DNA of 64,000 bases from Leuctra nigra (lineage: Eukaryota; Arthropoda; Insecta; Plecoptera; Leuctridae). The translations under genes and the position numbers were made by a program. The notes beneath the pieces were generated by a model, which saw only the letters and a list, made by a program, of their open reading frames with translations, did no database searches and was not told where the DNA came from. Positions 17,240-62,492 of this stretch are shown here, piece after piece; position 1 is the first letter of the stretch, and each line of letters opens with the position of its first letter. The stretch is taken from positions 38,887,017 to 38,951,016 of the forward strand of contig OW203763.1 in NCBI GenBank assembly GCA_934045905.1, read 5' to 3'.

Positions 17240-19192
<1,953 letters not shown>

Positions 19193-22720: not shown

Positions 22721-25143
22721 AATCCTTACCAGATCTTACCAGATCTTCATCGTCCAACCTTACCAATCTTCATCGTCCAACCTTACCAGATCTTCATCGA
22801 TCCTTACCAACTCTTCATCGTCATCCTAACTAGATCTTCATCCTCCATCCTTACCAGATCTTCATCGTCCATCCTTACCAATCTTCATCCTCCATCCTCC
22901 ATCCTCCATCCTTACCAATCTTCATAGCCCATCCTTACCAGATCTTCATCCTCCATCCTTACCAGATCTTCATCGCCCATCCTTACCAGATCTTCATCGA
23001 TCCTTTCGAACTCTTCATCGCCCATCCTTACCAGATCTTCATCGTCCATCCTTACCAATCTTCATCGTCCATCCTTACCAGATCTTCATCCTCAATCCTT
23101 ACCAGATCTTCATCCTCCATCCTTACCAGATCTTCATCGATCCTTACCAACTCTTCATCGCCCATCCTTTCCAGATCTTCATCGTCCATCCTAACCAATC
23201 TTCATCGTCCATCCTTACCAGATCTTCATCCTCCATCCTTACCAGATCTTCATCGTCATCCTTACCAGATCTTCATCGATCCTTACCAATTCTTCATCGT
23301 CATCCTTACCAGATCTTCATCCTCCATCCTTACCAGATCTTCATCCTCCATCCTTACCAGATCTTCATCGATCCTTACCAACTCTTCATCGCCCATCCTT
23401 ACCAGATCTTCATCGTCCAACCTTACCAGATCTTCATCGTCCAACCTTACCAGATCTTCATTGTCCAACCTTACCAATCTTCATCGTCCAACCTTACCAA
23501 TCTTCATCGTCCATCCTTACCAGATCTTCATCGTCCATCCTTACCAATCTTCATCCTCCATCCTAACCAGATCTTCATCCTCCATCCTTACCAGATTTTC
23601 ATCGTCCATCCTTACCAGATCTTCATCGTCCATCCTTACCAGATCTTCATCGTCCATCCTTACCAGATCTTCATCGATCCTTACCAATTCTTCATCGTCA
23701 TCCTTACCAGATCTTCATCCTCCATCCTTACCAGATCTTCATCCTCCATCCTTACCAGATCTACATCGATCCTTACCAACTCTTCATCGCCCATCCTTAC
23801 CAGATCTTCATCGTCCATCCTACCAATCTTCATCGTCCATCCTTACCAGATCTTCATCCTCCATCCTTACCAGATCTTCATCGTCCATCCTTACCAGATC
23901 TTCATCGTCCAACCTTACCAGATCTTCATCGTCCAACCTTACCAATCTTCATCGTCCATCCTTACCAGATCTTCATCGTCCATCCTTACCAATCTTCATC
24001 CTCCATCCTTACCAGATCTTCATCGTCCATCCTTACCAGATCTTCATCGTCCAACCTTACCAATCTTCATCGTCCAACCTTACCAATCTTCATCGTCCAT
24101 CCTTACCAGATCTTCATCGTCCATCCTTACCAATCTTCATCCTCCATCCTTACCAGATCTTCATTCTCCATCCTTACCAGATCTTCATCCTCCATCCTTA
24201 CCAGATCTTCATCGATCCTTACCAACTCTTCATCGCCCATCCTTACCAGATCTTCATCGTCCATCCTTACCAATCTTCATCGTCCATCCTTACCAGATCT
24301 TCATCCTCCATCCTTACCAGATCTTTATCGTCATCCTTACCAGATCTTCATCCTCCATCCTCCATCCTCCATCCTTACCAATCTTCATCGCCCATCCTTA
24401 CCAGATCTTCATCGTCCAACCTTACCAGATCTTCATCGTCCAACCTTACCAATCTTCATCGTCCAACCTTACCAATCTTTATCGTCCATCCTTACCAGAT
24501 CTTCATCGTCCATCCTTTCCAATCTTCATCCGCCATCCTTACCAGATCTTCATCCTCCATCCTTACCAGATCTTCATCGTCCATCCTTACCAGATCTTCA
24601 TCCTCCATCCTTACCAGATCTTCATCGATCCTTACCAACTCTTCATCGCCCATCCTTACCAGATCTTCATCGATCCTTACCAACTCTTCATCGCCCATCC
24701 TTACCAGATCTCATCGTAAATCCTTACCAATCTTCATCGTCCATCCTTACCAGATCTTCATCCTCCATCCTTACCAGATCTTCATCGATCCTTACCAACT
24801 CTTCATCGCCCATCCTTACCAGATCTTCATCCTCCATCCTTACCAGATCTTCATCGTCCAACCTTACCAGATCTTCATCGTCCAACCTTACCAATCTTCA
24901 TCGCCCATCCTTACCAGATCTTTATCGTCCATCCTGACCCATCTTCATCGCCCATCCTTAACAGATCTTCATCGTCCATCCTTACCAGATCTTCATCGTC
25001 CAACCTTACCAGATCTTCATCGTCCATCCTGACCAGATCTTCATCGTCCATCCTGACCAGATCTTCATCGTCCATCCTTACCAACTCTTCATCGTCCATC
25101 CTTACCAGATCTTCATCGTCCATCCTGACCCGATCTTCATCGT
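22721..25143 (+). repeat. 2.4-kb minisatellite of 24-bp and 21-bp units
   Basis: Roughly 100 tandem units built on CTTCATCGTCCATCCTTACC with or without the extra AGAT. Variants carry CCTCC, GCCC, GTCCAA or GATCC in the same place. A composite variant (CATCGATCCTTACCAACTC followed by TTCATCGCCC) recurs at irregular intervals and gives a loose higher-order structure. Unit lengths are multiples of three and lack stops, so long frames stay open: a 523-codon frame on the plus strand, and 8-residue VRMDDEDL repeats on the minus strand. I treat these frames as repeat artefacts. Confidence 0.97.
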
Positions 25144-26762
25144 CTCCCGAAATAAAAGAGTAAGATCATGAAACTCAATGATATTAATTTTTATATTACT
25201 TTCCCTTGAACATTGTTGTTTGCAACGCAATGGACTCACGCACGACCCGATCGCTTTAATTTGATAAGAATTCTTCTCCTTTTAGTCTTTTAGTTCTTTT
25301 TATTTACATTATCCATCTTGCGATCTCGAGTAAAGCAAGAAAAATCTTTGACGTTTAAAAGAGCAACCTTTTACCTTCCCCTCTAAATGTAGAAACGTCC
25401 TTCCCTGCCTGCTACATACTTGAATCTCAAGTTTGACACACGAACCGTCCAAAATGTCAGTACTGGTTGAAGTGAGTGCAACATTATTTGTAGTTGTACA
25501 GACCCAACCTTCAGCTAACACCATGATGTCCAATGTCCCCCGGAGCAGAAACTTCAACTTAGATCTTGATTGGCGGCTGTTCCACAATTAATTTTCTTCT
25601 CCACCTCCTCCTTCACCTCCTCCCCACCCTCTTCTATTGATAGTCTCATGTAGGTAATAAACAACATTCTATCACCCTCAGGGTAGATGTAAACAATGGG
25701 ACAATCTCTTCATAACGTTGATTCTGGCTTTGCTTTATGGAAGGACGAATAAAATGAGACAGGTGTTGCCAACTTCTTTACTAAGAGCATTATCAACGTC
25801 ATTTTACGCACTCAAGGGAGAAAAAGATCAACGTTAACTTTGTTGCTATAACTTATAACAGTACTAGTTAGTACTTGTAGAGTTACCTGTAATACCCGTA
25901 GAACTTGTAACAACTTTGCATTCTTAGTTCATAACAATTCATGAAAGCACGACGGCATGTTTTACGCATTAAGTTTCTAACATCGTTCAAGTACATGCAT
26001 ACAATTTATAGATACAAACAGCTTTAAATACGTTCATCAACATATTTAAGCATTATATAAGAATAATAATTTATAATAGCGTTCAGTACCATTCGTTCAT
26101 GAATACATTTTCACAATATATAAGCTTAAAATAGCTTTCAACCACCAAGCTTTCAAGCGCCATACGTTGTCGAATTCGTAATTATTTCACTAGAATATAA
26201 TATTTCCATAAAATTAAAAAAAAAAGTATTCAAACTACCACATTCCGACGAACTTACTGACTGAGATTTCTTCCTTGGTTTACTCAGTTTTCTAAAGGTA
26301 GACGTTATATGAACGATTGACATTCATGACAATCGGCGTCTGGCTTTCTGTCTAGCACTTTTAATGGACAAAATTGATCACACCACGAACATCAATTCTA
26401 AGAAAAGTCAATCAACGAAAGTAGTTTTGTTGACCATAGGAATGAGTGACTTCATTTAGTGAAACATTTGCGTGCCAAGTTACTGAAAGATTGTTCAAAC
26501 TTTCATGATTGCATATCTACAGTGGCTCTTCGTGTACTGCGTTGTCCTCACTATCTTGCCTTGGGAACTTAGCCTGGTTCACTGCTGCAGAATATTCTAA
26601 CACTCACATACTCATTTTGAGGTTCAAATCGTAATTTTTTATTTTTATAATATGCCTTAATATTTTGATGATAAGTTACGTAAAAAACGAGGTCGCCGGT
26701 TCGCTCGCAGCTACTAATTAAGGGAATCTTTGTTAGCTTCGCTTCCTTCCACCGCTTAAATT
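25144..26762. other. Unassigned sequence
   Basis: No supported gene. The minus-strand frame at 25309-25587 has no recognisable domain. A CT/CACCTCC-rich strip lies at 25590-25650. Confidence 0.4.
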
Positions 26763-26935
26763 CAAAAATCTCCATAAAAAAAATCCGTGTAAAAACAGAA
26801 GCCATGTTTCCTTTTCTAAAAAAGAAACAAAAATCAAAATATTCAGCACTGAAAGATAGTGATATCAAAAAAGGACCAAATCAAAACAATTCAAAATATA
26901 TTTTTAAAAATAAAGACCGCACATGGCGTGTATAT
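26763..26935 (+). mobile_element. Degraded single arm of the foldback family
   Basis: ATCCGTGTAAAAACAGAAGCC, TTCAGCACTGAAAGATAGTG and ATATCAAAAAAGGACCAA match, in order, the foldback arms at 37152 and 46057. The complementary arm is not found downstream. Confidence 0.55.
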
Positions 26936-35327: not shown

Positions 35328-35331
35328 ATCT

Positions 35332-35351
35332 AGTGGAGCGGTCGCTCCACT
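35332..35351. repeat. Terminal hairpin AGTGGAGCGGTCGCTCCACT
   Basis: Nine-base perfect arms around GT at the array-proximal end of the element. The inverted copy has GGTGGAGCGACCGCTCCACT at 47372-47391, with one mismatch in the arms. Confidence 0.8.
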
Positions 35352-35784
35352 CAGCCAAGTCGTACCGTACACTCACAGTCACTCTACATACCGTAAATGC
35401 CTATATAAACTGAGGAGCAGACCAACTACTTTTACTGTAAGCAACAACATGGCATTTTCGGCCTACTGGATCTCAACAATGGAAAATCTCTCATTGTTGT
35501 GAAATGTCTTAATTTTGAGCTATGGCCCACCTGACAACATATACATCACGCGACACCAACCAGTCATGCCGTTTACGACCTAGAGGGCCGTGAAAATCGT
35601 GAAATTACACCGCTTTCTTCTTCTTCTTCTTCTTCTTCTTCTTCAGATTCCGATTCCCGAAAAAGTTGCTATCACCGCCACAGCCTAAACGGCTGAACCG
35701 ATCAACCTAAAAAATTTACCACATATGCACTTTTGGCGTCTGATGATACCTTGCCTCTTGTGATTTTTTGTGCCGCCATTTTTA

Positions 35785-36962
35785 AACCGGAAGTGACGTC
35801 ATATCTCAAAAACGTCTCGACCGATTAGAACGAAATTAGCGTCATTCGATTTAGATGGTCATTTATATGAAGTATCAATAAAAAAATAATAATTTTCTTA
35901 TTTTCTAAACCGGAAGTGACGTCATAAATACGCTATTTCAACAAATTATACTTAAAATACATACATAATTAACTTACATTGTGACATAGATAATACAAAT
36001 TATAAATTCAAGGTTGCAGTGTTCTCGGCCGCCATTCCTGAAACCGGAAGTGACGTCATATCTAAAACGTATGTACCGTTTGCAACTGAACTAGCTCCTG
36101 CGTATTCATTCTGCAATTTATTTGAAAAATCAACTGTGAAAAATGAATAAACAAATTAAAAATACCGAAAATGGCGGCAGGAACCACTAAATGAAACCGG
36201 AAGTGACGTCATATATTACAACGGCATGATCGATTTTACGGAAATATAGGGATTATGAATTCAGATGGTCGTTCATGAAGTATCAACTAGATAAAACTAG
36301 ATTGTTTTCTTAAAACCTATACCGGAAATGACGTCATAAATATGCTAAATTACGTCATAAATATGCTAAATGACACTGAATTCACCACTTTATACTTTTA
36401 AATAGATATAAGTAAACGTACTTTGTGAATAATTATAAATTCAAGGTTGCAGTGTTCGCGGCCGCCATTTTTAAAACCGGAAGTGACGTCATATATCGAA
36501 AACGGCTGTACTGATTGCAACCAAATTTGGGAAATGTGTAGGTCTAATAATTATGAATAAAAGACGAAATTATTTTCGGCTGCCATTGTTAAAACCGGTA
36601 GTGACGTCATATATCGAAAACGGCTGTACTGATTGCAACCAAATTTTGGAAAAGTGTAGGACTAATAATTATGAAGACAAGACGACATTATTTTTGGCCG
36701 CCATTGTTAAAACCGGAAGTGACGTCATATATCGCATACGGCTGTATGTTTTGCAACCAAATTTTGGAAATGTGTAGGACTTATAATTTTGAATTTAAGA
36801 CGACATTATTTTCGGCCACCATTTCAAAACCGGAAGTGATGTCATATATCGAAAACGGCTGTACCGATTGCTACCAAATTTTGGAAATATGTAGGACTAA
36901 TAATTATGAATTCAAGACGACATTATTTTCGGCCACTATTTCAAAACCGGAAGTGACGTCAT
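35785..36962 (+). promoter_or_regulatory. Array of ten composite ETS-CRE motifs, several with an upstream YY1-like site
   Basis: The 17-mer ACCGGAAGTGACGTCAT starts at 35785, 35909, 36043, 36196, 36321, 36476, 36594, 36712, 36829 and 36946. Seven copies are perfect and three carry one substitution (36321, 36594, 36829). ACCGGAAGT is the consensus ETS-family site and TGACGTCA the full palindromic CRE bound by CREB/ATF; here they are always directly joined. GCCGCCATT, the YY1 core in this orientation, lies a few bases upstream in units 1, 3, 6 and 8, and inverted before unit 4. Unit spacing is 118-155 bp at first and then settles at 117-118 bp. That period is nearly three-divisible and leaves open frames with a 39-residue repeat, which I do not consider a gene. 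Regulatory activity is inferred from motif identity only. Confidence 0.75.
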
Positions 36963-37151
36963 GTATCGAAAACGGCTGGACCGATTGTAACGAAACTTAA
37001 GCTTATCTTCTTGGATAATATTTTAAGCTTAATATTCCAAACGCAACTTTTCTTAATAACCAAATCGGTTGAGGCGTATTCTTTTAAAGAAATTGGTCCT
37101 TCTCGGACATGTGCTACAAGCTGTATGAATAAACTAACAAAAGAAGTGATA

Positions 37152-38228
37152 TCCCAGAAAAAAACACTCCGTGTAAAAAAGGCAGCCAAGTCTCTTTACT
37201 TTAAAAAAATTCAACACCGAAAAGGAGTGATATCAAAAAAGGAGCCAAGTCAATGACATTTCCAAATATTTAATCGTATTTTTGAAATAAAAGAATAAAC
37301 ACCGAGAAATACTTTACAAAAGGACTTGGCGCATCGTTTTTTTAAAGACATTTTTCTATTCATAAGCATATGCCATTTATATACAACCGTCGCATTTTGA
37401 GAATAATAGGGAAACATCTTTCAATTGCATAATATAATGTACATACCTACTGTAAAATATTTTCTACTTAAATATGTACGCTATAAAAACTTGTTGCCTA
37501 TGTTTTCTATAAATACACAATAGTTATCTTCGTAATGTTTCGTGGTAAACATAATTAAGTCTCATGCGTTATACCTTCTTATCATGAAATACATTTCTAT
37601 TAATCCACATTTTATAACAATACATTTCACAAAGTACACAGTCACATTGTATTTCTATTAAAAAATTTAACTTTATACACTTGACACTTCAAAAGTATAT
37701 AATAGTGTTCCATAGATAGTTCGTAATTATTTGACAACTTTCATGATTTCCTTCAGTCAAGATCAAATTATGAAATATACGCTTCTTATATCACCATATT
37801 AACAGTACTGCAAGAACATGTATGAGTCCACTTCAAATTGTTATTTAATTCTTCCACCCTTATATTACTTATCTATTAAAGCATGAAATCTTTCTTTTAT
37901 CGCTATTGACAAAACTATAAAATAGCCATTACTAATAATATTGATATTGATATTCATAGATTCTGGCTCTAATAGAAAGAGGAAGATGTACCTTCTTGTA
38001 AATTTCTGTCCACTTTTAGGATAGAATGATGTCTTTAAAAAAACGATGCGCCAAGTCCTTTTGTAAAGTATTTCTCGGTGTTTATTCTTTTATTTCAAAA
38101 ATACGATTAAATATTTGGAAATGTCATTGACTTGGCTCCTTTTTTGATATCACTCCTTTTCGGTGTTGAATTTTTTTAAAGTAAAGAGACTTGGCTGCCT
38201 TTTTTACACGGAGTGTTTTTTTCTGGGA
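37152..38228. repeat. Foldback end of copy 1 (arms about 195 bp, loop about 690 bp)
   Basis: TCCCAGAAAAAAACACTCCG at the left is matched by the exact complement at the right. Pairing runs inward through the AGCCAAGTCTCTTTACTTT string to CTTGGCGCATCG near 37337 and 38045. The loop is AT-rich and shows no gene. Confidence 0.85.
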
Positions 38229-38476
38229 TTATTAATACCGAGGGGCAGGACGTAGCTATCAAGAAAATTTAGTTTGTCTATTGGTAATTTCTTTTGCTCT
38301 GGGTAATTTGAAGCATAGGACAAATACATTTTTTAATTGATAATTATTTGTGGATTTTTTTTAACACTTTTAGAAGTTATGAAGAAAAACCAATGCTAAT
38401 TTCATAACCAATGTGAAATTGTCTAATTCAAATTTGAATGTTGATAAAAGTTTTGAAGTTGATGACGGGTTTTTGG

Positions 38477-38617
38477 GATGACGACGATGATAAGGATGAT
38501 GATGATGATGATGATGATGATGTTGATGATGATGATGACGATGATGACGATGATGATGATGATGACGATGATGGTGATGATGATGTTTATGATGGTGATG
38601 ATGATGATTATGTTGAC

Positions 38618-38684
<67 letters not shown>

Positions 38685-38773
38685 TTGACGATGTTGATGA
38701 TGGTGATGATGATGATGTTGATGATGATGATGATGTTGACGATGATGATGATGATGAAGATGATGATGATGTT
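38477..38773. repeat. (GAT)n microsatellite, imperfect
   Basis: About 300 bp of GAT with GAC and GTT interruptions, including a perfect central run of about 60 bp. The poly-Asp, poly-Met and poly-Ile frames across it are repeat artefacts. Confidence 0.97.
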
Positions 38774-38835
38774 GAAGAAATGGAAATAATTGAAGGTAGG
38801 AAAGAGGTGGTCGTGGTTCACCCTTGATTCACCCA
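38774..38835 (-). mobile_element. SINE fragment at the edge of the (GAT)n array
   Basis: ATTGAAGGTAGGAAAGAGGT followed by GGTCGTGG matches the reverse-oriented SINE block that normally sits next to the family's ATC-rich segment. Confidence 0.5.
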
Positions 38836-40709
38836 CTGTACCTACACTTCCGTCTATCTATTACCTATTATCCAGTGTCGAGAATGAAGCCTTGTTGACG
38901 GAGATACGCCCCTCTTGCTCTGAACAGCTCATTTTACACAACTCCTTGTACAAGGAGTTTGATTGATTGTAAAACGCCGGCATAACAATTGATGTTTCAT
39001 GGATGCTGAAAGACGTCAACATTAAAGACTCAAAACTCACTTGACGTCGAACGTTGCTCAAAAAACGATTCTTTTCCAATATGCATACTTGAAACACCCT
39101 CGGGAGACAGTTATTTGTTAAATGAGCAAACCATGATTCATTTATTATGAATATTGATCTTAATTAGAAAACTGGAATTTTCACCATGCGCGCTAGAAGT
39201 TATCTCCTCGTCTTCTATAGTGATATTATGCCCACCCATGGTGCTTTTCAATAATATACCAAGGTTTTACGTAACAATTGCACCTTTAATCTTAATATTG
39301 ACAGCTTAATTGCATCGAGAAATGATTCGCAAAGTCCTCGAGGGTATAAATAGTTTAATTTCTCAATTATGTCGACAAAAAGAACTTTGTTAGCGGAAGC
39401 TTGACCGTCTTGATACACAATTATTCATTTTATTGCTATTGTAAAGTACATGGCGTACATCCCAACGATACAAGACTGATACATAGATCTGGAAGAATGG
39501 AATATTTGGAACGTTCTCTCCTATTGATTCCTATGTTTGTAATGGACAAATCAAGTTTCTCGTTTATATAAGATTTGAAGAAGGTGGTAAACCCAGTTGT
39601 GTCTCGATATTGAGTGATGATAACTGTCTTTTACATCGAAATTAGATAATGAAGTAGCCTAAGTTGACAAGAGAAAAGTGATGTTTTATGAAGAATATTG
39701 GCATGTTATATGATCCCACATTGCAAGGAGAAATCGATTGAAATTGATATATTATTATATGATGAGAGAATGTCGACTAGTGAAATTTGATCTATGATGG
39801 TGCCAATATAGTCGAGGCAAGGAGGGGCTGTACACATGGGTGAATTATCGATGTGGTGAGGACCCATAAAAAAATACTATAATTAAATAACGTGATTTTT
39901 TGACATAATTAGATTCATGTTTAACTATGGAGTGTATGATGATAGGTCTTCTTTGGCATCATGATAGCTCTTCACGCACATCCTGAGGCCACGAGATTTG
40001 TGAAAAATCAATCAGCCATTTGGATTTTGATGAGGAGTTTCTCTCTTCTTCGAGGTGATCTGGATCTCTTGAGACGTTCTGCTCAGTTGACGGTTTTCTG
40101 TTACGTGAATATGAGCTTGAGCGAGATATTTGATAGGTGATGTTGCTTAGATGTAACCAAACACCGCGTAGTATACTGAAACATATAAGAAGATTGATTT
40201 TTTATAGCTCTTTGCAAGATCGGCCTTCAAAATGCAGCCGGACAGAACCTTGATGAAAGCTGGAACAACCGTAAGGAATTTACTGGTTTATATACGGGAA
40301 AAAAGAACAAGTTAAATATAGGTCAATACTTAGGGAAATTAAAAAATAAAAACAGATGTTTTATTATTATAATTACTTCTGGTAAATTACAGTGTTTTCT
40401 TACTAACCTCGTCATTTTCTTACAATATTGTATTTGAATGTGTAAATAATTGTTACAAAAACTGACTCTCGCAGGTATAAGATGAAATTGTCTCGAATAA
40501 CATGTATATAATAATAAATAATAATATACCGTTTCGCATGTCTCAATGATGACTCTTATTTATTATGTCTGAAATTAATTATTTTTCCATCGATTGTATC
40601 GTGTCTACGATTTATTCTCTTGGTCCTTTTGAATCCGCCAATGATTGGGATATGTGCGGTAGAAAGATGATGGGGAAGAGGAAAGACAACATTCTAAAAC
40701 AGTGACTAT
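38836..40709. other. Unassigned sequence
   Basis: No supported gene or repeat. Confidence 0.4.
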
Positions 40710-40800
40710 GGTCGGTGACAAGCAAAGATGAACCCGCTGTAGCATGGGCCGGCCTAAACCTGGCCATTTAAACAGGGTTCATCTTTGCCTGTCCCCGACC
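40710..40800 (+). mobile_element. 91-bp hairpin MITE, copy A
   Basis: GGTCGGTGACAAGCAAAGAT plus GAACCC at the left pairs with GGGTTCATCTTTGCCTGTCC plus CCGACC at the right, giving arms of about 27 bp. The GC-rich middle (GGGCCGGCC) is shared with copy B at 47961-48052. Confidence 0.8.
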
Positions 40801-46056: not shown

Positions 46057-47395
46057 CCCCATAAAAAACACTCCGTGTAAAAATACTAGCCAAGTCTCTT
46101 TAACTATAAAAAAATAGAAGAAATCTAAAAATTCAGCACTGAAAAGTAGTGATATCAAAAAATTGGCCAAGTCAAACTTAATTTGAAAAACCAAAATATA
46201 CTTGGCGCATCGGGTATTAATCTAGTATAGAAGTATATGCCAAAAATCATATGTACCTAAATATATAAAATATACCTATAATGCCCTTAAAAACGATGCG
46301 CCAAGTATATTTTGGTTTTTCAAATTAAGTTTGACTTGGCCAATTTTTTGATATCACTACTTTTCAGTGCTGAATTTTTAGATTTCTTCTATTTTTTTAT
46401 AGTTAAAGAGACTTGGCTGGTATTTTTACACGGAGTGTTTTTTATGGGGATATCACAATTTTTTTTAGTTTATTTAAACAATTTGTAACACATATCGAAA
46501 CAACAATGACTAATTCCTTTAAAAAAATAATCCAGTTCCAATTTAGTTCCTAAGAAAAGTTGCGTTTGGTACCAAAATATGCTTAAAGTGATATTCCATG
46601 AAGAAAAGCGAAAGATTTGTTCCAATCGGTCCAGCCGTTTTCGAGATATGGCATCACTTCCGGTTATCAAAATGGCGGCTGAAAACACTCCACGTAGAAT
46701 TTGTTTATATAAATGTTTTGTATCATTATAAACCTTGTGAATAAGTAGTTATTGTAGTAAGAGGTGATTAAAGTCTGATTTTTCATTTTTATGACGTCAT
46801 TTCCGGTTTCAGTAATAGTACATTTCTGTTTAGACTATTGTATTTTCATATATATGACCGTCCGAATAGTTTGACGCTAGTTTCGTTCCGATCGGTTCAG
46901 CCGGTTTCGAGATATGACGTCACTTCCGGTTTCAAAATGGCGACTTCCGGTTGGTTTTATAAAAAGGCACCTCAGACGCCAAAAGTGCACATGTGGTAAA
47001 AATTTCAGATCGATCGGTTCAGCCGTTTAGGCTGTGGCGGTGATAGCGGTGTTTCCTGATATCTGAATCATCATCATCTAAAGAAGAAGAAGAAGAAGAA
47101 GAAGATAAAAGTGATGTAATTTCACTGTTTTCACGGCCCTCTAGCTCGCAAATGGCATAACCTATTGTTCCCAAATTTGGTATATGTGGTGGGGTGGGCC
47201 ATAGCTCGAAATTAAGATATTTCACAACAATGTGAGATTTTCCAATTTTATGATCCAGTAGACCGAAAATGCCATGTTGTTGCTTACAGTAAAAGTGTTT
47301 GGTCTGCTCCTCGGTTTATTAGGCATTTACGGTATGTTGAGTGACTGTGAGTGTACAGTACGACTTGGCTGGGTGGAGCGACCGCTCCACTAGAT
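46057..47395 (-). mobile_element. Compound element (copy 2, inverted): terminal hairpin, short ETS-CRE array, foldback end
   Basis: Read on the minus strand it has the same parts in the same order as 35328-38228: GGTGGAGCG hairpin, leader with GCAACAACATGGCATTTTC, (CTT)n tract, CACAGCCTAAACGGCTGAAC, array, CAAACGCAACTTTTCTTA spacer, and the foldback at 46057-46449. It is shorter because the array has only three full units and the foldback loop is about 80 bp rather than about 690 bp. Confidence 0.72.
46648..46930 (-). promoter_or_regulatory. Three ETS-CRE composite sites in copy 2
   Basis: On the plus strand the sites are ATGACGTCACTTCCGGT (46914-46930, perfect), ATGACGTCATTTCCGGT (46791-46807, one change, the same substitution as copy 1's fifth unit) and ATGGCATCACTTCCGGT (46648-46664, CRE damaged). 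AAAATGGCGGC, a YY1-type site, follows the last of these; AAAATGGCGAC with an extra ETS half-site follows the first. Confidence 0.65.
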
Positions 47396-47960
47396 AACCC
47401 ACAGAAAAAAACATCATAAAATGCTTTTGAAATTTTATGACACAGAAATTACAAAAGATATTAAACACGTTTATGTGATTTTTTTTTTTCGGAAGCAGGT
47501 TAGTCTCCAAATTGCTTTATTGCATTCGATTAATTCGTGATCAAGTTCATTCAATAATACTGCTGAGCCCATTCTATACCTGACTGTTCTCATTTCATTT
47601 CGGACCGAAATTATTTCACTGTCATAAGAATGACATGGAACTAAAATTATTTTAGACCGAAATGATGTGAAAATAGTTTAGAATAGCGGCTCTGGAAAGT
47701 GAACAGCATCATTCGAAATGGCGGGACTTACATTTATTGAGAATACAAACAAACGGTGACACCTTATATAGAAGCAAATGCATGTGGGGGGATGATCATA
47801 GAAAATATAAAAACAAAATTATGATAAGGAACTAAATATAATAAATATATTACAAGATCATCATCATACATTAAAAATTCACTAATTTTAGATTATAATA
47901 TCAGGACTACAAATAAACTTACCATAGGTATAACTATATTCTCAGAAACTGTATATCTAT
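47396..47960. other. Unassigned sequence
   Basis: Nothing recognisable. Confidence 0.4.
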
Positions 47961-48052
47961 GGTCGATGACAGGCAAAGATGAACCCTGTTTAGCATTGCC
48001 AGGTATAGGCCGGCCCATGCTAGCGCGGGTTCATCTTTGCCTGTCACCGACC
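47961..48052 (-). mobile_element. Hairpin MITE, copy B (inverted)
   Basis: Its reverse complement aligns along its full length with 40710-40800, including GGTCGGTGACAGGCAAAGAT and CATGGGCCGGCCTA. The arms pair with few mismatches. Confidence 0.8.
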
Positions 48053-50654
48053 TTAGAGCCATTTTTTAGTAGTAGGTATTTTAAAATACTTTATATCATT
48101 CTTGCGATATATTTCATCTAATATTAGTCTGTATCAAATTATCAACTGTGGGACAAATAGATGCGTCAGTAATTTTTACAACAAAACCTCTCAAACTCTC
48201 TTTAATTTAACTTTATTGTTACTTCTAAATCAAGCCTCCAAATCGAATTCGCCTGGAGATTAGTTTAGATTTAGCACGCTTGGGTTCAAGTACAGTCTCT
48301 AAGATTGTTTGTGTTATATTCTTACGAATAACCTGTCAATTAATGACATGACAGCCTCCCACCATCGCCACCCGTTCATTATCATCTGCCGATTCTCAAT
48401 CAGTAATCACTATTTGCCTCAACCCAGACACGACTTTTATTTTGTCAAGGGATCAACTCACTACAGAACAACTCTTGCGGCATTTACACCCAGTTTTTTT
48501 CTGTCACCACAATCCTCGTATGATTCGACATTGATCGCATGCAATTGGCATCACATCGCCTCCAACATTGTTCCAAGTTCATTGTTCAGTCATTTTTCTT
48601 GCGACAGGACAATATCTTTCATTGATAAACTGTAGATTCTCGCGTGACTCTCGACGACATGAAACATTCTAATAATTGTCTCAGAAATGTCACGAGCCTC
48701 GTGGCTAATAAAAAGACTAAAGAGAGCACATCACAACGCACTGCATTCAATGTTGATACACTTGAGTTTTTGACCACTAACTTTACAAGTTGAACATGTT
48801 AGCCAGCCTGACGAGTGATTTCCATAACCTGACTCATTTCCTTTCAACCTCGAATCTTCGTATTCGTCACGTTGCACTATGCAAATAATGATCCCATGTC
48901 ACTCGAAGCAACGCTCTTCTGGACTGATACATGAAGCTTAGTTTATGCAAATCCTGCTCAAGTTTCCAGCCGAGACTTTTTTTAACTATCTCCTTCTCTT
49001 TCTTTTACTATACTTCTGGAATAAGAATGACATATGCCAGATTGATAGCAAAGTTACTTCGAATGTGGAAACAACTGTATTTGCAAAATGACGGCAACAT
49101 CTTTTACTTCAAGAGTGCCACTTCATGTCCTTTATACGTCAGGCTGCAGCTTGCTCTGTAGCTATTAGCTTCAGAGAATCTTACAATATATCATCCTTTT
49201 TTACTCGATCTAAATCAAGGATTTTAACTAATCAATTAATCGAATTCAGTTGTAGATTAATCATAATGTTTACCTCACAATTACAACTGTCAAAAATCCT
49301 TAACAATAATAACCACCTTTCATATACAGACCATTTAATTGCCATCTCTTCTACACATTTAGATGACAGTAAATCTTTCTTGCGTTCGCAGACAATGTCT
49401 AGACTGATCTAGTTGCTATCATTATTTGTATAATTCTCCTCTAAACGATTGCAAAAAGCATGTTAGAGGAGAAACATTGATCAGTATGGTGAATTCAAGC
49501 CAAGTCTTATGGACTTATTGATGAAGCTTCGAAAGTGATGGTGGACATTAATGGTATAGAAAACCATTAAATGGCATAGCAACAACTAGACGTACACCAA
49601 GAAGTTATCAGAGGATTTGCTGTGACCTGGTACAACATGTTATGTTGAATTCCACATGGAAAATCACTTTCTTTTATACATTCTCTATAATGTTGATAAT
49701 TTTCAATTAAGTTTTCATTATTAGAATGACTTCGTGATTGCGTTTGTATTTTCTTGAAGTTTAGCAAATAGTGGTTACGTACACAAACAAACGTGAATTT
49801 TAATTCAAACTGAAAATTTGAATTAATTAGTTTGTTCCATTTCAATTTTCAATATATTCTGCAGGCGATCTTTTGGACAAATGAGACTTGATTATGAAAA
49901 AATATTTTGTAACATTTATTTTTTTAGTCAAATTGTGAAATATCATAGGTATACTATTTAAAAACAGGTACATTCTAAATTATATGGTTTCTCGAGAAGA
50001 GAATCAGTTGCTAGAGAAATAATTTTGGGTGGGGGGATCAACGTTCTAAACGAAGACAATAAAAAAGACGCGCGTCCGGGACCCCCAAAGATTTGGTGGA
50101 ATCGATTGAATTGCATATATCGTTTACGTGCTTTTACCACTGAGTTCTAACTTCCTTTTGAGTACGAAACATTGTTGGGTACCAACTTCAAAATTATGTT
50201 TCTTTTGACCAGGGTTGTAAAATCTATGTATCCAGAATAAATTAAGAGAACCCAAAAATATTAAATAAAAAAATGAAGTGGCTTAGAGATAATTTTCTAT
50301 AAATTTAATTCGTTTTGTGAGTAATTTTCAATAAGTTTTTTTAGGAAATCAAATTCGCGACAGAGATTCTGCGAGCAGCACTGCAACTTAGTGATATTTA
50401 TAAAAAAAAAAATATTAGATCACGCTAAAGGGGAATGGAGGAAGAAGGAGGACGCCAGCCGATCCAGTTGGTCCCGTAGACCGATGTTTTTATGTAACCT
50501 TACAAAACCAATTTGAGATCACGATTACCACTTTTTAATGTTTGTTCACATTAGGGGGGCCAGACCCTTTGCCCCCGCCGTGCGCAAATATGCATTCGCT
50601 GAGTGATTTACCTTGCACTGCTCTGCACTATAAGCTCATGACAACAACTGCATA
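48053..50654. other. Unassigned sequence
   Basis: No supported gene. The frames at 48309-48635 and 49125-49412 have no recognisable motif. Confidence 0.4.
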
Positions 50655-54884: not shown

Positions 54885-55292
54885 TGTTAGGTCTAGGGGC
54901 TAACAATACTATTAAAACACGGAATACAGTTTAATACATTTATTTGAATTAATTAGAGACACACACACACCGCAGATAATATTCACTGTTCTCAACTGTT
55001 CACAACTGTTCACGTCTGTGGTCCCGTTAGCACTCGCCACTCGCAGTCGCACTCCGATTCTCTCGCTCACCCCTTTGGTCTGCCTGCCACCCTTCGCCTC
55101 GCACAGGTGCACATTCCTAAGCTAAAATGTGCACATCCGCTGTGACACGGCGGACCTAAACTATTGCTACCTAAGACAACTAAAACACATTCAATCTTAT
55201 ATATTATGATAGTCACGTTTAAACTAAAATACCTACAACTTACTACTAATCTAACACCTACACTAATCCGTTAGGATGGCGCCATCCTAACA
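54885..55292 (-). repeat. 3' LTR, 408 bp
   Basis: On the plus strand it starts TGTTAGG and ends CCTAACA (TG...CA). It differs from the 5' LTR at four positions, near 54983, 55089, 55132 and 55165. It contains a short (AC)n and a perfect 22-bp palindrome at 55270-55291. Confidence 0.95.
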
Positions 55293-55320
55293 TTTCCCCC
55301 CCCCCCCCCCCCCCTTAAAA
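55293..55320 (-). promoter_or_regulatory. Polypurine tract with a run of 19 G
   Basis: Directly before the 3' LTR on the minus strand the sequence is A-rich, then AAGG with 19 consecutive G in all, then AAA. Position and purine content fit the primer site for plus-strand DNA synthesis. Such a long pure-G tract is unusual. Confidence 0.75.
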
Positions 55321-55354
55321 GCGGCGTTAGCGGCGGCGTCGCAAGGCATAGCGA

Positions 55355-56912
55355 TTGTATTTTGTATTTGTAATATATCCTGCAAATGTGCTTTGGCACG
55401 GTGGCAGTCTTTTCTTTCTTCTACTTCTTTCTTCACTTTTTCACTATCATCCTTTTATATTCCAAAAGTTCTTCAGCTTTTTTCGCTGCCTCACTTAAAC
55501 TGTTCCAGTCTTTAATTGTTCTTCTTATGAAGCTGTATTTTCCTATGTCGGTCTTTGATCCTTCTACAGTTATTTCTAACCCTCTTCGAACTGAACACCT
55601 CTCCCCACCCTTTCCCCCAGTTCCTCCCATCCTGTCCACCCATTCCTTACCCTAAAGAAGTTCATCAGTCTTTCATTTTTCCTTCTCTCCCCTAAATTTT
55701 CCCATCCTAATTCCTCTACCATCTCGCTGGGCCGTTCTCTTAATTTTTCAACTATCCCCTGCTCATTTCTTTCAACTCTGAAACTTTTAACTCTACCAAG
55801 AACCCTTCTCGCCGCTAATCTCTGCACCCCCTCTACTTCTTTGATTAAATTCTCATTGTATGGATCCCAGACTGAACCAGCGTTCTCAATCATCGGACGT
55901 ATTAAACTTTTGTATGCTTTTTCTTTAATGTGAACCCCAGTACCATTTAGTTGTCTCATTACAAAATTTAGAGCTTTTATTCCCTTGTTAGTAAGTTTTT
56001 TAATATGTTCTCCCCACCCTAGATTCTTGTGTATGTGTATTCCAAGATATTTGTAGGCATCTACCTCCTCTAGTATGTTTCCTCCCAAGTTAAATTCTGT
56101 ATTAAGGTCTTCTCTTCTATTTTTCCTGGTGAAATTTACTACTTTACATTTATTCACGTTCAGCCCCATTAAATTTGTTTCAACCCATGTATTTATTAAA
56201 TTTAAATCCTGTTGTAGCGTCTCCTCATCGTCTTTGCCATTTATAGTTTTGTATACTACACAATCATCGGCAAATAGACGGATTTTTGATGTGATGCCTT
56301 GTGCCAGGTTGTTGATGAAAATGTTAAATAACAGTGGTCCCAATACACTTCCTTGTGGTACCCCAGATGTTACTCTTATGTAGTCTGAGTACTCACTTCC
56401 GACCTTTACTTTTTGTATTCTATTGCTTAAGAAATTTTGAACCCATTTTGTGATAGTTGTATTTTGAATAACATTCTGTAATTTGGCTATAAGTTGTTTA
56501 TGGGGAACTTTATCAAATGCTTTTTCGAAATCCAGCTATTTTCTCCCCCCTGTCCAAAGTGTCCGACAACTCCTGCACAAACCCCTGTAATTGTGTAGTG
56601 CATGAGTGTCCCTTTCGAAATCCATGTGTCCGACAACTCCTGCACAAACCCCTGTAATTGTGTAGTGCATGAGTGTCCCTTTCGAAATCCATGCTGTCCT
56701 CTAAATAAACCCCCCCTTTTTTCAATTATGATTTTAATTTCGGTATCAATTAATCTTTCTAATATCTTGCAGACAGCTGATGTTAGGCTAACTGGTCTAT
56801 AGTTGGATAATTTTGCCCTTTCCCCACCCTTATGAATTGGTATAATGATTGCTTTCTTCCATTCCAATGGAACTATGCCCGTATCGATTGAATTTTGAAA
56901 AATAATAGTTAG
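55355..56912 (-). pseudogene. 5'-truncated LINE (non-LTR) reverse transcriptase inside the LTR element
   Basis: From the integrase tail the frame passes into TIIFQNSIDTGIVPLEWKK, SNYRPVSLTSAVCKILERL and QHGFRKGHSCTTQLQGFV, hallmark early RT motifs of LINEs. After a break it continues in another frame with LDFEKAFDKVPH, GPLLFNIFINNLA, the catalytic FADD at 56272-56261 (FADDCVVY), NVNKCKVVNF and YKYLGI, then after a further frame change FIRRTIKDWNSL, a C-terminal signature seen in Jockey/CR1-like elements. The 3' end has TTACAAATACAAAATACAAT, like the short simple-repeat tails of such LINEs. At least three frame disruptions are present, so it is not functional as it stands. Clade assignment is tentative. 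Confidence 0.85.
56559..56692. repeat. 67-bp direct tandem duplication in the LINE piece
   Basis: The block starting GTGTCCGACAACTCCTGCAC occurs twice with no difference (56559-56625 and 56626-56692). Because 67 is not a multiple of three, the second copy shifts the RT frame. Confidence 0.95.
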
Positions 56913-58820
56913 ATGCCGTGCGGGAGGTGGAGCTGGCGCTGCCTGGACTCTGGGTGTCGGAGGCGGCGTCGCGGTCTGGGCCCAATCTGGGACTGGCACG
57001 ACTCGTAGGAGCTGGTCGACGTTGGCTCGCCCGGCTGACCGCGATGTGGCGATGTCCTCCAAATCGAACACGTTCGGTCCGATGCATCGTGTAATGCGGA
57101 ACGGGCCGTACCGCTTCGGCGCCAGACTGGCGGCGATTCCCTTGCTGGCGTCGCTGAGAGTGTGCAGTTCCCTCCACACCAGGTCGCCGACATGGAAGGT
57201 CACCTCCTGGCGGTGCTCGTCGTACGTCTTCTTGGCTGTCGCGTGTGCAGCACGGACGTGCTGGGCTGCGAAGTCTCTAGCAGCCTCGAGGCGATGGCGG
57301 AGGTCGGCGGCGAACTCGTGGCGGGGCTTATCATCCGCCGTCTCGTCGGTGGCGGCTCTTGCGTCGTCGACGTTGCGCGTCCACGGCGCCCTCAGTTCCT
57401 GTCCGTACACGAGGAACGCAGGGGAGTATCCCGTAACGGAGCTGGTCGCGGTCCTCAAGGCGAAGAGGATCTCCGGCAGTCTCTGGTCCCAGTCTCTGTG
57501 CTCCTGGATGTAGGCCATAAGCGTCTGTTTGACCGTCGCGTTGTGGCGCTCGACGGATTGACCGCAGGGGCGGTATGGTACCGAGGGACGCTCTATGATG
57601 TTGAGGTGAGATAATACTCCTTTCAAGAGGTTACTGACGAATGGCTTTCCGTTGTCGCTGGAAATGCTGCGCGGAAAGCCCTGCCGCGAGATGACCTCCA
57701 ACATGCGCGGTACGATGGCCGCTGTTGTCGCCGACTTCAGTGCAAACACCTCCAGGTACTTCGTGAATTTGTCCACGCAGACGAGAAGGTATTGGTGGCG
57801 GCTCTTAGACGTCGGCAGCGGTCCGATCAAGTCGACGCTTAACTCGGCGAATGGTTCCTCGGGATGGCGACTGAAGATCTTGCCCGCTGGTCGTTGCCTG
57901 CGTGGTTTGATTGTCTGGCAAGTGACGCACGACCGCACGAACTCAGACACGTCCGTCAGCATTCCCCTCCAGACGTAATCACGCCGGATGCGCGTGAGCG
58001 TGCGAAAATATCCGCCGTGTCCGCTCAATGGGTGCGTATGTCCCGTTGTCAGAACAAGGGACCTCAAGTTCCGTGGCAACCAGACCGTTGTTCCGGGGTG
58101 TTCCTTGATTCTGCGGATGAGGAGGCCGTCGTTGTTGATCTCGCTGTCTGTTGCCACGCTGCGTATCCATGTGGCGAGTTCGGAGTCGTCTGGCAGCTCG
58201 TTGTGCAACAGAAACCGCGCCAGGCTGACTAGTTCCTTGTCACCTTTCTGATGAGCGACGAGTAACGTAACATCCTTCAAGCATGTGATGTCGGCGTCGG
58301 CCACCGCGGTGATGTCGTCGTCGTCGACGGCGTCGGTCGCCGCGCATGCCGCCGCGACCTCGGGGTCTGCTTCGAACCTGACGGTGCGAACTTCGTCCTG
58401 TATGTTCATCGGGAAGAGGCTTTCGGCTACCGATGGTCTTGGCGACTCTGTCGATAGTGTGACGGGCGCCCTGCTAAGTGCGTCTGCTGGGAGGTTGTTA
58501 GTTCCTTTGCGGTAGCGCACCGTGCAGTTGTAGCCCTGTAAGCGCAGGACCCAGCGGCGGACTCGGCTGGACGCTAGATCCGTCTGGAACATCCAGGACA
58601 GAGAGGCGTGGTCGCAGTGGATGTCGAAAGTCGTGAACTCCAGGTACGGGCGGAACTTGTCCACCGCCCACACCACAGCCAGGCACTCGAGTTCTTGAAC
58701 AGTGTAGTTTTTCTCGTGCTTTGAGAGCTGGCTGCTGATGTACTCGACTGGACGCTGTTTACCGTCGTGGTCTTGGAGAAGAACTGCTCCGATGCCTATT
58801 CCGCTGGCGTCGGTCTCCAC
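56913..58820 (-). CDS. Pol C-terminal part: RNase H and integrase
   Basis: About 636 codons belong to the Gypsy element; the same frame then runs on 141 codons into the LINE piece and stops at 56487. RNase H: ETDASG at residue 2-7, QELECLAVVWAVDKF near 42-56, HCDHASLSWMF near 68-78, ADALSR near 112-117. Integrase zinc-binding HHCC: H263/H268 with C298 and C301. Catalytic D-D-E: D330 (SVDLIGPLP), D389 (SSDNGKPF), E424 (QSVERHN), with the expected 34-residue gap between the last two. A GPY/F-like module follows (RYGPFRI near 570-576) and then a proline-rich tail. Integrase inserts the cDNA; RNase H removes template RNA. The frame is separated from the RT frame by an indel near 58820-58850, in a C-rich run at the start of RNase H. 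Confidence 0.9.
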
Positions 58821-59881
58821 GGAGAACGGCGGTTGAGATCAGGAAGAGCCAGAGCCGTCGCTGCGATCAACCCGTTGATAAGTTGCCTGAAAGCTGCTTC
58901 TTCCTCGGTAGACCAGACCCACGGGACATCCTTGCGCGTGAGTCGAGTCAGTTTGGCGGACAGACCTGCCATGTCTTTGATGAAGGATCTGTAGTAGCCG
59001 ACGAGACCGAGGAAACTCTGCATCTCCTTAACGGACGTCGGTCGGGGGAAGTTCAGAACTGCCTCCACTTTAGCTGGATTCGGGAGGCACTGGCCCGGCC
59101 GGAGGACGTGGCCGAGGAAGTGCAGAGTGCGTTGAAACATTTGAATCTTCTTTGGGTTGACGGTGAGTCCGGCGTCTTCCAGGCGGCGCAGCACTTCCTC
59201 TATGTGCCGGACGTGGTCCTCCGCGGTCTCGGAGAACACTACGATGTCGTCCAGGAAGACCATGGCGCATTTGTACTTGAGGTCCCCTAGGACGTTGTCC
59301 ATCAGCTCCTGGAACCTGGCCGGACTCCCAGCCAGCCCGAACGGCATCCTCTTGAATTGTAGGAGGCCTCGATGACAGATGAAGGCAGTCTTGGGTCTGT
59401 CCTTGTAAGCTACTTGTATCTGGTGGAATCCCTGTGAGAGGTCTAGGGATGTAAACCACTGCGCCCGTCCCAACTGTGCGAAGATCCACTTCGTCGTGGG
59501 CATGGCGTAGACGGGAACGACTGTCCTCTGGTTGACGGGGCGGTAGTCGACGGCGAGCCTGTAACCTTCGACGGGCTTCTTCTTAGGCACGATCACGGGA
59601 GCTGACGCCCAGTTGCTCTGAGATGGCTCGATCATGTCGTCTCGGAGGAGGTCGTCGATCAGAGAGTCCAAAATCGCTCGCTTTCTCGAGTTGACCTCGC
59701 GAAGCTTGCAGCGGTATGGCGCGCTGTTTCCGGTGTCGATATGATGGACGACTCGCGCTGTGGAACCCGGCTTCTTCGTGAAGAGAGCCGAGTAGCGCGC
59801 CATGACGGTCCTGAGCGCCGGCAATACTTCGGACGGGCAGTCTGAGGGTCTGTCGAACACATCGCCGACCACTTCTTGCAC
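58796..59881 (-). CDS. Pol middle part: reverse transcriptase
   Basis: The open stretch of 361 codons holds the Gypsy-type RT core: RLAVDYRPVN at about 108-117, SLDLSQGFHQI at about 145-155, QFKRMPFGLAGSPARFQELM at about 175-194, and the catalytic FLDD at 209-212. It is followed by LHFLGH and the thumb. It copies element RNA into DNA within the particle. The nominal start is not a real initiation site: the upstream end merges with the protease frame through a shift near 59881-59910, where this frame has a stop. At its 3' end the frame stops just inside what should be RNase H, while the RNase H frame overlaps it. Confidence 0.9.
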   Translation of the reverse strand: MQEVVGDVFDRPSDCPSEVLPALRTVMARYSALFTKKPGSTARVVHHIDTGNSAPYRCKLREVNSRKRAILDSLIDDLLRDDMIEPSQSNWASAPVIVPKKKPVEGYRLAVDYRPVNQRTVVPVYAMPTTKWIFAQLGRAQWFTSLDLSQGFHQIQVAYKDRPKTAFICHRGLLQFKRMPFGLAGSPARFQELMDNVLGDLKYKCAMVFLDDIVVFSETAEDHVRHIEEVLRRLEDAGLTVNPKKIQMFQRTLHFLGHVLRPGQCLPNPAKVEAVLNFPRPTSVKEMQSFLGLVGYYRSFIKDMAGLSAKLTRLTRKDVPWVWSTEEEAAFRQLINGLIAATALALPDLNRRSPWRPTPAE

Positions 59882-59889
59882 AGCTGTGC

Positions 59890-61166
59890 CGTCCTTCGCC
59901 TATCGCCCGCCGGGGAACCTTGTGATCGTGTTCGGCGGCGACGCAGACTTCGGGGTACTTCCGGTTCGCTCGATAGAATGAGCGCAGAACGCCGATGCGA
60001 CCCTCGGACTCCCGAGGCGTCGGGGCGCCGGTAGTATTCGGTTTCTCTAGCACCTTGCTTAGAGCTAGTATGACCGACGCTAACTGTTGCTCGCGTGATG
60101 GTCGTCGGAACGAATGTGGTCTCGCGGAACTGCTCTGGCCTGGCCTCGCTGAGACCTTGCTACCTCGTGTCATCGCAGATCCCGTGACGCCTGGCATCGT
60201 GGCGGGGACGGCGACGTGGCTCGGCGACGCCGGAAGTCTCGCGGCAGCGTCGCTGGATGACGGCGTCGTGGCGGAGACGGCGACGTTGCTCTGCGAAAAC
60301 GGGAGTCTCGCAGCGGCGGCGCTGGATGACGGCGTCGTGGCGGGGACGGCGACGTGGCGCACTGTTGGGGCTGTCGTGGCGACGGAGGCGTAAGATCGCG
60401 CAGTTATCGGCGTGGCCGCGAAGAAGTCTGGAGGCCGTGCCCTCGGAGCCGTGGAGACTTGCTCGAGCTGCGCTACGCGGGATGGCATTTGACGGCGTCG
60501 GCTGTGGACTGGGTGGACGCCGCTCTGTCGACTGCAGGGACTCGCTAACTTGGCGAATCGAATCAGCCGCTGTGGGGCTGTACCTACTGTCCAGCCGCCG
60601 TCCGCCGTGTGGATGGATATCCCTGTAGCATTTAGGAAGTCTCTGCCTAAGATGATGGCTTCCGAGGCGTCCGGCAGGAACAAGAAGGACTGCCGACGGC
60701 TTCCTCCTGGCCAGGACACTCTGAACTGCCACTTCTCCGAGACTTGCGCTCTACCTGACGCCAACTGCAAGTCGCAGGACGTAGCTCGAGGTTTGCTTCC
60801 AAGCTGCATGGCTGCTTGCCGACTTTCTTTCCCGATGATGCTCACCGATGAGCCTGTGTCCAGCAAGGCCGGGAATGTCGACTGTCCGATTGATAAGCTT
60901 AATCTTGGCGCCTGGGTCTGCGACACACTAACCTGCATGGCGTCGCCAGCGAGGGAGTTTGCAGTTTTCTCTCTCACTGGCGCCAGTTTTTTTATTGTTT
61001 CTGGTGCCCCGACGACGTCCGGCGCTGTGACGGCGTCGGCTTGAAGAACGGCGACTGCGACTGCTGCTGTGACGGCGTCGGCTGGTAGAACGGCGTCTGC
61101 GACTGCTGCTGTGACGGCGTCGGCTGGGATGGGCACTGTTTTGCCCAATGCCCGACGCCGTGGCAT
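59890..61166 (-). CDS. Pol N-terminal part: retropepsin-type protease
   Basis: It overlaps the end of gag by about 175 bp in the -1 frame, the usual arrangement for expression by ribosomal frameshifting. The N-terminal part is a low-complexity repeat (PADAVTAAVADAVL) read from the same bases as gag's PTPSQQQSQ repeats. The protease active site is LLDTGSSVSI (D103) and the family's second motif is AIILGRDFL (about 170-178), so a one-domain aspartic protease lies between about residues 85 and 185. A long Ala/Ser/Pro-rich linker follows, with near-repeats of VAVPATTPSSS. The frame continues to 59583, but past about 59890 it is out of phase with RT. Confidence 0.85.
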
Positions 61167-62008: not shown

Positions 62009-62070
62009 TCTCGCAAACGCTTGCACAACTTATAATAAACACGATATATATATTTTAAAAAAAACTTTTG

Positions 62071-62082
62071 AACGAGCCCCCA
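62071..62082 (-). promoter_or_regulatory. Primer-binding site, proline-tRNA-like
   Basis: Two bases inside the 5' LTR the minus strand reads TGGGGGCTCGTT. The first 11 bases match the complement of the 3' end of tRNA-Pro as used by some retroviruses; the match then fades. Confidence 0.65.
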
Positions 62083-62084
62083 AT

Positions 62085-62492
62085 TGTTAGGTCTAGGGGC
62101 TAACAATACTATTAAAACACGGAATACAGTTTAATACATTTATTTGAATTAATTAGAGACACACACACACCGCAGATAATATCCACTGTTCTCAACTGTT
62201 CACAACTGTTCACGTCTGTGGTCCCGTTAGCACTCGCCACTCGCAGTCGCACTCCGATTCTCTCGCTCACCCCTTTGGTCTGCCTGCCTCCCTTCGCCTC
62301 GCACAGGTGCACATTCCTAAGCTAAAATGTGTACATCCGCTGTGACACGGCGGACCTAAACTATTTCTACCTAAGACAACTAAAACACATTCAATCTTAT
62401 ATATTATGATAGTCACGTTTAAACTAAAATACCTACAACTTACTACTAATCTAACACCTACACTAATCCGTTAGGATGGCGCCATCCTAACA
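62085..62492 (-). repeat. 5' LTR, 408 bp
   Basis: Paired with 54885-55292. It carries the promoter: a TATATAAG box on the minus strand and an AATAAA signal (TTTATT at 62139-62144 on plus), placing the transcribed repeat region between them. A 66-codon open frame inside both LTRs (starting MHLCEAKGG) is probably incidental. Confidence 0.95.
62396..62403 (-). promoter_or_regulatory. LTR TATA box
   Basis: TATATAAG on the minus strand, about 90 bp from the LTR's 5' end; the equivalent site in the 3' LTR is at 55196-55203. Transcription would begin about 25-30 bp further along. Confidence 0.5.

Follow-up and report, generated by a model that had tools for sequence, protein, structure and literature searches.

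The ten joined ETS-CRE sites in this stretch of DNA are carried by a non-autonomous Helitron-type (rolling-circle) transposable element, and constraint on the first two of their cores, the first of which has an adjoining YY1-like sequence, seems, from the pattern of changes among copies, to act on the propagating element and not on individual insertions. We favour, with a probability of roughly 55%, the reading that the element relies on host factors at this YY1-like/ETS-CRE module to stay accessible or transcribed. Throughout, the window is the whole 64,000-nucleotide stretch that was analysed, and positions are counted from its first letter.

Anatomy, insertion and copy number of the element

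The first-pass annotation described a 17-mer repeated ten times within a transposable element, and both statements hold. The 17-mer, ACCGGAAGTGACGTCAT, occurs ten times on the plus strand at 35786–36962, with seven perfect copies and three carrying one change (at 36321, 36594 and 36829), and three further sites with 0, 1 and 2 changes, absent from that annotation, lie on the minus strand at 46648–46930 inside a second, shorter copy of the element (Table 1). A mean of 0.06 matches at ≤ 3 mismatches is expected by chance from dinucleotide shuffles of the window, compared to 13 observed. Site-to-site spacings are, in order, 123, 134, 153, 125, 155, 118, 118, 117 and 117, the last five sites forming a regular array with a period of ~118 bp; comparison of the units confirmed that the earlier spacers vary in length and sequence, as had been reported. 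The sequence GCCGCCATTTT, which we take to be YY1-like and which had also been recorded at first reading, is indeed present upstream of the core in the units termed A and is absent from the units termed B. At site 4 it is inverted and farther upstream, and this unit was assigned to neither class. Between A and B units of the window the core and a few adjoining bases are alike, with background similarity beyond.

Table 1. Features of the Helitron-type element and its ETS-CRE sites in the window
Feature	Position	Strand	Basis
Element copy 1, Helitron-type, ~2.9 kb, ten sites; host A at 35328, host T at 38229	35329..38228	+	boundaries from comparison with other copies
5' terminal hairpin AGTGGAGCG-GT-CGCTCCACT, adjoining TC end	35332..35351	+	
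5' subterminal repeat CAGCCAAGTC	35352..35361	+	
(TTC)n microsatellite, left module	35615..35644	+	
Site A1: YY1-like GCCGCCATTTTT and ETS-CRE core	35772..35802	+	unit comparison, conservation ranks
Site B1: ETS-CRE core, unrelated flanks	35909..35925	+	unit comparison, 5'-anchored copies
Site A2: ETS-CRE core; many relatives keep mainly the ETS half	36043..36059	+	5'-anchored copies
Site 4, with ATGGCGGC (inverted YY1-like) upstream	36196..36212	+	motif search
Site 5, B type, one change	36321..36337	+	motif search
Array, ~4.6 units of ~118 bp, sites 6–10 (36476, 36594, 36712, 36829, 36946)	36459..36995	+	
3' palindrome, left (inner) arm, 99% complementary to right arm	37151..37359	+	
3' palindrome, right arm, includes 3' end	38021..38229	+	
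3' subterminal repeat GACTTGGCTG, inverse of CAGCCAAGTC	38188..38197	+	
Short 3' hairpin ACACGGAGTGT, then T-run and CTGGGA end	38206..38216	+	
Element copy 2, short subfamily, 1.34 kb, three sites	46057..47394	-	
Copy 2 sites	46914..46930, 46791..46807, 46648..46664	-	
Copy 2 3' palindrome	46057..46449	-	
Old remnant: single arm of 3' end only	26756..26899	-	

Both window copies begin with TCTAGTGGAGCGGTCGCTCCAC and have a 9-bp hairpin beside the end (with one base changed at its last position in copy 2), followed by CAGCCAAGTC. After the 5' end come a left module of ~400 bp with the microsatellite, the ETS-CRE sites, and a terminal palindrome whose right arm contains the inverse repeat GACTTGGCTG (GACTTGGCTA in copy 2), the hairpin ACACGGAGTGT, a T-run and an end of the form CTGGG(A) or ATGGG(G)(A). 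The number of sites per element ranges from 1 to 12 and arrays vary in size. Within each copy of the long elements (L013–L029) the two palindrome arms are 97–99% alike over ~190–230 bp, the exception being one L019 element with arms of only 41 bp, while between the two window copies the arms share 83–88% identity in ungapped pieces of 49–59 bases and ~74% in longer gapped alignments; this suggests that arms are re-created or converted. The loops of the 3' palindromes differ in length, and arms are far more alike within a copy than between the window copies. In L048 the first 320 element bases consist, by eye, of a 5' end and then its own inverted copy, as if replication had snapped back. The family is apparently non-coding: an open frame is present in the left module of several copies, and a coding reading was rejected because substitutions at first, second and third codon positions (47, 74 and 67) show no third-position excess. 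A candidate "palindrome-only" element in L022 proved from its coordinates to belong to a neighbour on the opposite strand, as that element's 3' palindrome.

Insertion takes place between A and T. A host A precedes the 5' TC in all 22 5' ends first compared (20 core-picked loci plus the two window copies). On contig C1, 44 consecutive perfect 5' ends have this base in 43 cases, the remaining one (L048) having G. The 3' end is followed by T in 19/19, a T that could belong to the element in 11 (which end GGGAT) and could not in 8; this count uses 19 of 20 rows, the first L022 row being excluded as the inner palindrome arm of a neighbouring element. One empty site was found, as the L026 insertion lies between CAATAAA and TATACT of another element, an uninterrupted relative of which is present in L022, and no base is duplicated or lost at the junction. 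An A-T insertion point with no duplicated target is described as a Helitron signature in PMC4067079. Helitrons are expected to end in CTRR, and the 3' ends here are CTGG, CTGGG or CTGGGA in 13/19 and ATGGG(G)(A) in 6/19; the 3' hairpin ACACGGAGTGT is 11 nt long with a 4-bp stem, where a Helitron would have a palindrome of 16–20 nt ~11 bp from the end, and its distance from the end is about right. An initial assignment to the HINE/Helentron class was dropped because insertion is at A-T and not at TT. The microsatellite and central tandem repeats of that class are present, and its subterminal repeat (11–15 bp, 2–4 nt from the 5' end) has as its nearest counterpart the 10-bp CAGCCAAGTC/GACTTGGCTG, ~23 nt from the end.

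The genome (536.2 Mb, 144 contigs) holds 28,555 exact 17-mers (14,131 + 14,424) against 0 for the reversed-pattern control, and the 5' end 20-mer TAGTGGAGCGGTCGCTCCAC occurs 14,483 times (7,173 + 7,310) at ≤ 1 mismatch, with a control of 0. Thirty loci anchored on the 5' end, with ~1.5 kb read at each, contained 48 perfect cores and 111 at ≤ 3 mismatches; scaled to 14,483 ends, 48 per 30 gives ~23,000, a rough sign that the family is the source of most of the 28,555 17-mers. Over their first 900 bp, subfamilies diverge by 25–37%. On contig C1, four copies (L018, L023, L025 and L028) are 99–100% identical over ~900 bp, and the family has therefore moved recently. Four viral contigs each contain one exact 17-mer, by eye at two places each present in two contigs, and were set aside as unrelated since no second site was shown within 300 bases on either side. 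Our search of one open-access library returned no report of this element family and no paper on an insect Helitron with CREB and ETS binding sites.

There are 78 Helitron Rep matches in the genome, some of which are pieces of one gene; many have open frames longer than 1,000 aa, reaching 2,375 aa, several are equal in score and length, and two copies, compared over the 2.5 and 3.2 kb that were read, share 99.9% identity. No autonomous partner having the same ends was found among 12 short Rep loci and four longer regions, stretches that stop short of their own ends. Segments of 25–45 bases resembling (82–87%) the left-module sequence ACGGCTGAACCGATCGATCTGAAATTT (consensus 334–388) occur around an autonomous Helitron gene, in L076 on the minus strand at about 639, 7783 and 9125.

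Elsewhere in the window, a Gypsy-type LTR element at 54885–62384 encodes protease, RT, RNase H and integrase domains on the minus strand, and 300 bp of its LTR aligned at 99%; additional RVT_1 pieces downstream of the integrase, LINE-like by eye and one of them below the Pfam cut-off, lie around a perfect 67-bp tandem duplication. Named matches to the Gypsy reverse transcriptase come from plants, oomycetes, fishes, an ant, a beetle and worms, and single out no host lineage. The window also contains a 24-bp minisatellite, CTTACCAGATCTTCATCGTCCATC, of ~100 copies (22735–25144; plus strand strongly C-rich, with long open stretches in several frames), a perfect (TTA)81 run (18418–18660), a GAT-rich array of 300 bp (38477–38775, ~250 bases beyond the 3' end of copy 1), and another hairpin repeat, CTATGGTCGRTGACARGCAAAGATGAACCC, at 40706–40767 and 47956–48057, occurring singly in one case and as an inverted pair in the other. 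No host exons were recognised by eye among the open frames of the window.

Identity and conservation of the ETS-CRE sites

The joined ETS-CRE sites recognised in the first-pass annotation correspond to a known composite in which the two motifs overlap exactly (PMC3464117). The element matches this composite, CCGGAAGTGACGTCAC, at 15 of 16 positions and in the exact published register, the final base being T instead of C. In human promoters CCGGAAGTGACGTCAC is bound jointly by GABPalpha and CREB only in the exact overlap (PMC3464117, PMC4555227), and probes with a 1-bp deletion or a 1–3-bp insertion gave no joint complex (PMC3464117, PMC4555227). ETV5, another ETS protein, interfered with CREB (PMC3464117), thus not every ETS factor would serve. 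The human genome is reported to contain 226 copies of the 11-mer CGGAAGTGACG (PMC3464117). Read on the opposite strand, the block that includes the YY1-like sequence of the element is CRE-ETS-AAAATGGCGGC. The order CRE-ETS-YY1, with the YY1 site at the start, is a housekeeping-promoter arrangement; a literature search for that arrangement in one open-access library returned no paper with all terms.

Conservation was assessed in copies chosen by a perfect 5' 20-mer and not by the motif, all from the first 3.1 Mb of one contig, in a first sample of 30 loci and a later one of 44 consecutive 5' ends; these supersede an earlier core-picked sample, in which A1, B1 and A2 ranked 1, 295 and 480 of 887. 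Cores within 3 mismatches were present at 26 of the 30 loci, from which 12 representatives under 88% identity were compared, and 37 of the 44 5' ends were usable, with 11 representatives for ranks. Those excluded from the 44 were L035, with sites farther in, and L039, L048, L049, L052, L082 and L084, in which homology to the family ends within the first 85–353 bases; four of the 30 were excluded on the same grounds. As homology in these six core-less copies stops before the position of A1, their exclusion hides no destroyed sites.

Among the 12 representatives, 4/204 cells of the A1 core differ from the consensus compared to 234/1413 in the flanks (p ~9e-11), and for B1 the figures are 4/187 and 242/1033 (p ~4e-15; L042, whose homology ends earlier, dropped). 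For A2 they are 17/170 and 175/870 (p = 0.0008; L042 and L035 dropped), these three p-values treating as independent cells that are not. The two halves of A2 behave differently, with 6/110 cells changed in ETS and 11/60 in CRE, such that the CRE half resembles the flanks and has been lost in many copies, mainly the ETS half being kept. Better conservation of the core than of the spacers, as earlier suggested, is thus borne out by the substitution comparison for the first two sites and, at the third, mainly for the ETS half.

The 31-bp block GCCGCCATTTTGAAACCGGAAGTGACGTCAT, comprising the YY1-like sequence, ETS and CRE of site 1, is the most conserved window of its length in both samples (rank 1 of 766 in the first and 1 of 590 among the 11 representatives of the 37), rankings that leave out the first 23 bases (the 5' tip). 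Ranks for the 17-mer were 6 (A1), 140 (B1) and 471 (A2) of 780 in the first sample and 5 (A1) and 203 (B1) of 604 in the second; ranked by contrast to their neighbourhood, B1, A1 and A2 were 3, 18 and 307 of 742. A1 is perfect in 30 of 37 copies, and the gap between the YY1-like and ETS sequences is 3 bp in 26/26. The core is not the sole constrained part of the element, since several left-module segments are nearly as conserved, some scoring as high as the 17-mer. In the consensus sequences, 16 of the 17 core positions are the same in A1 and B1, as are three bases before and one after, while in the next 30 bases 8/30 match on each side (random mean 7.9); the same 17–21 bp is therefore present in two unrelated contexts.

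To locate the level at which constraint acts, we divided changes in the A1 and B1 cores and flanks of the 37 copies (without L042, in which homology ends before B1, and L088 at B1) into those private to one copy and those shared by two or more, reading private changes as mostly post-insertion and shared changes as marks of lineages that were still spreading. Private variants have nearly the same frequency in cores (0.38 per column) and in flanks (0.40), while shared variants are depleted approximately six-fold in cores (0.12 compared to 0.68 per column; Fisher p = 0.0015), although the total of core variants is small (17), and neither columns nor copies are independent of one another. In the 28 copies left once near-identical ones are taken out, the values are 0.32 and 0.41 for private and 0.12 and 0.65 for shared variants (p = 0.013). 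In this analysis two random 17-column windows had as few shared changes in 1.1–1.5% of draws. The 26-copy set pointed in the same direction (Fisher p = 0.02 against wider flanks and 0.005 against local flanks). Since private changes do not distinguish core from flanks and shared changes are depleted in the core, selection would be on the element and not on single insertions. We infer that after insertion the core decays at about the rate of other bases, and that lineages without it seldom spread. The enhancer role for host genes raised in the first-pass annotation gains no support, private changes being as common in the core as outside it.

Possible reasons for retention of the module

We propose that the element carries a compact, housekeeping-promoter-like module, in which a YY1-like site and a 3-bp spacer precede an ETS site joined to a CRE in the exact register, with further ETS-CRE sites downstream. 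In the germ line these predicted sites would be bound by GABP-like ETS and by CREB/ATF proteins of the host, perhaps joined by YY1/Pho. The element would thereby stay open or transcribed and so within reach of a transposase supplied in trans; lineages with intact sites would therefore spread, and most later insertions would decay with no selection on their sites. Binding, opening and the resulting gain in transposition are what we infer from sequence. As a counterpoint, it is not obvious why a rolling-circle element that is non-autonomous should need a promoter. A stronger form of this proposal, which we advance tentatively, is that spread depends on a YY1-ETS-CRE module read by host housekeeping factors, which would amount to a cis requirement outside the transposase-binding ends.

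It is somewhat unlikely that the 17-mer or the 31-bp block is instead a site for a protein encoded by the element, such as the transposase or an accessory factor of an autonomous partner, its likeness to ETS-CRE being coincidental. Selection for propagation through such a site would look identical, and the constraint does seem to be on the propagating lineage; transposases bind repeated internal motifs in other elements; and with 78 Rep matches in the genome, the four regions sampled at length lack the family ends within stretches that do not reach their own. However, in our judgement a 15/16 match to an independently described 16-bp composite, together with a YY1-like sequence at fixed spacing, is unlikely by chance, and the motif CAGCCAAGTC/GACTTGGCTG, which recurs close to each terminus, would be the likelier transposase target.

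Homogenisation of the sites and amplification of the array might come from copying between cores, through recombination, gene conversion or slippage, with no bound protein. The clearly variable array size fits this, and the close likeness of the palindrome arms in long elements indicates that within-copy exchange may happen. We consider it unlikely as the explanation of the conserved sites, as homogenisation should drag in the flanks, whereas A1 and B1 have only the core and four adjoining bases in common, and A2 has not been kept equal to A1 in the same elements.

A host housekeeping promoter may have been captured once and passively amplified, as NUBPL was in HelibatN3, with conservation reflecting recent spread. 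YY1, ETS and CRE sites together do resemble a housekeeping promoter, and promoter capture by Helitrons is documented (PMC4778049). Capture may well be the origin of the module; as an account of its retention it is very unlikely, for the block hardly differs between subfamilies that are otherwise 25–37% apart, and passive amplification leaves this unexplained. Least probable is that the host adopted insertions as enhancers or chromatin entry sites and preserved the sites at individual loci, for which the element offers very many ready-made composite sites and a Helitron precedent exists in ISX of Drosophila miranda (PMC4384637), but which is at odds with the equal frequency of private changes in cores and flanks, although a minority of host-adopted copies may exist, given 37 sampled copies.

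If the element does rely on host factors at its module, a gene-less rolling-circle element would be under selection for interior host transcription-factor sites, beyond its ends. For the host, a single family would have scattered a very large number of composite sites, seeding the genome with > 28,000 exact ETS-CRE sites that may serve as a factor sink or reserve. The thousands of natural copies allow site loss to be compared with spread, and the family would provide a simple test case for whether host-factor binding opens elements to a trans-acting transposase.

Comparison with known systems

The element shares with canonical non-autonomous Helitrons a 5' TC, an insertion point between A and T with no duplication of the target, and a 3' hairpin ~10 bases from the end. 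It differs from them in a 3' end of CTGG(G)(A) or ATGGG(G)(A), not strictly CTRR, in a hairpin stem of only 4 bp, and in having a strong 5' hairpin, a long 3' palindrome and internal site arrays. Non-autonomous Helentrons (HINE/DINE-1) as described in PMC4067079 and PMC7492417 are similar: their left module has a palindrome and a microsatellite, tandem repeats occupy the centre, the subterminal repeats are inverted, and a hairpin lies at the 3' end. However, they prefer TT for insertion (PMC4067079), and have a T-run at the 5' boundary, which our element lacks, and a subterminal repeat 2–4 bases from the 5' end, compared to ~23 here.

The composite of GABPalpha and CREB has the same exact overlap register (PMC3464117, PMC4555227), but is described in human and mouse, whereas the likeness here, with its final T for C, is one of sequence alone. 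HelibatN3, a bat Helitron with a captured NUBPL promoter, also multiplies a promoter-like module (PMC4778049); in our element, unlike in HelibatN3 as described there, the module is repeated and constrained in the element lineage. ISX of Drosophila miranda is likewise a Helitron that spreads binding sites for a host complex, sites that are putative in our case, but ISX was adopted by the host at 77 neo-X insertions (PMC4384637), whereas here the sites number > 28,000, and the 37 copies give no sign of selection acting copy by copy. With ISX spreading binding sites and HelibatN3 a captured promoter, Helitrons of this kind are thus already known, and what is new is the repeated composite module, its copy number and the signature of selection at the level of the element.
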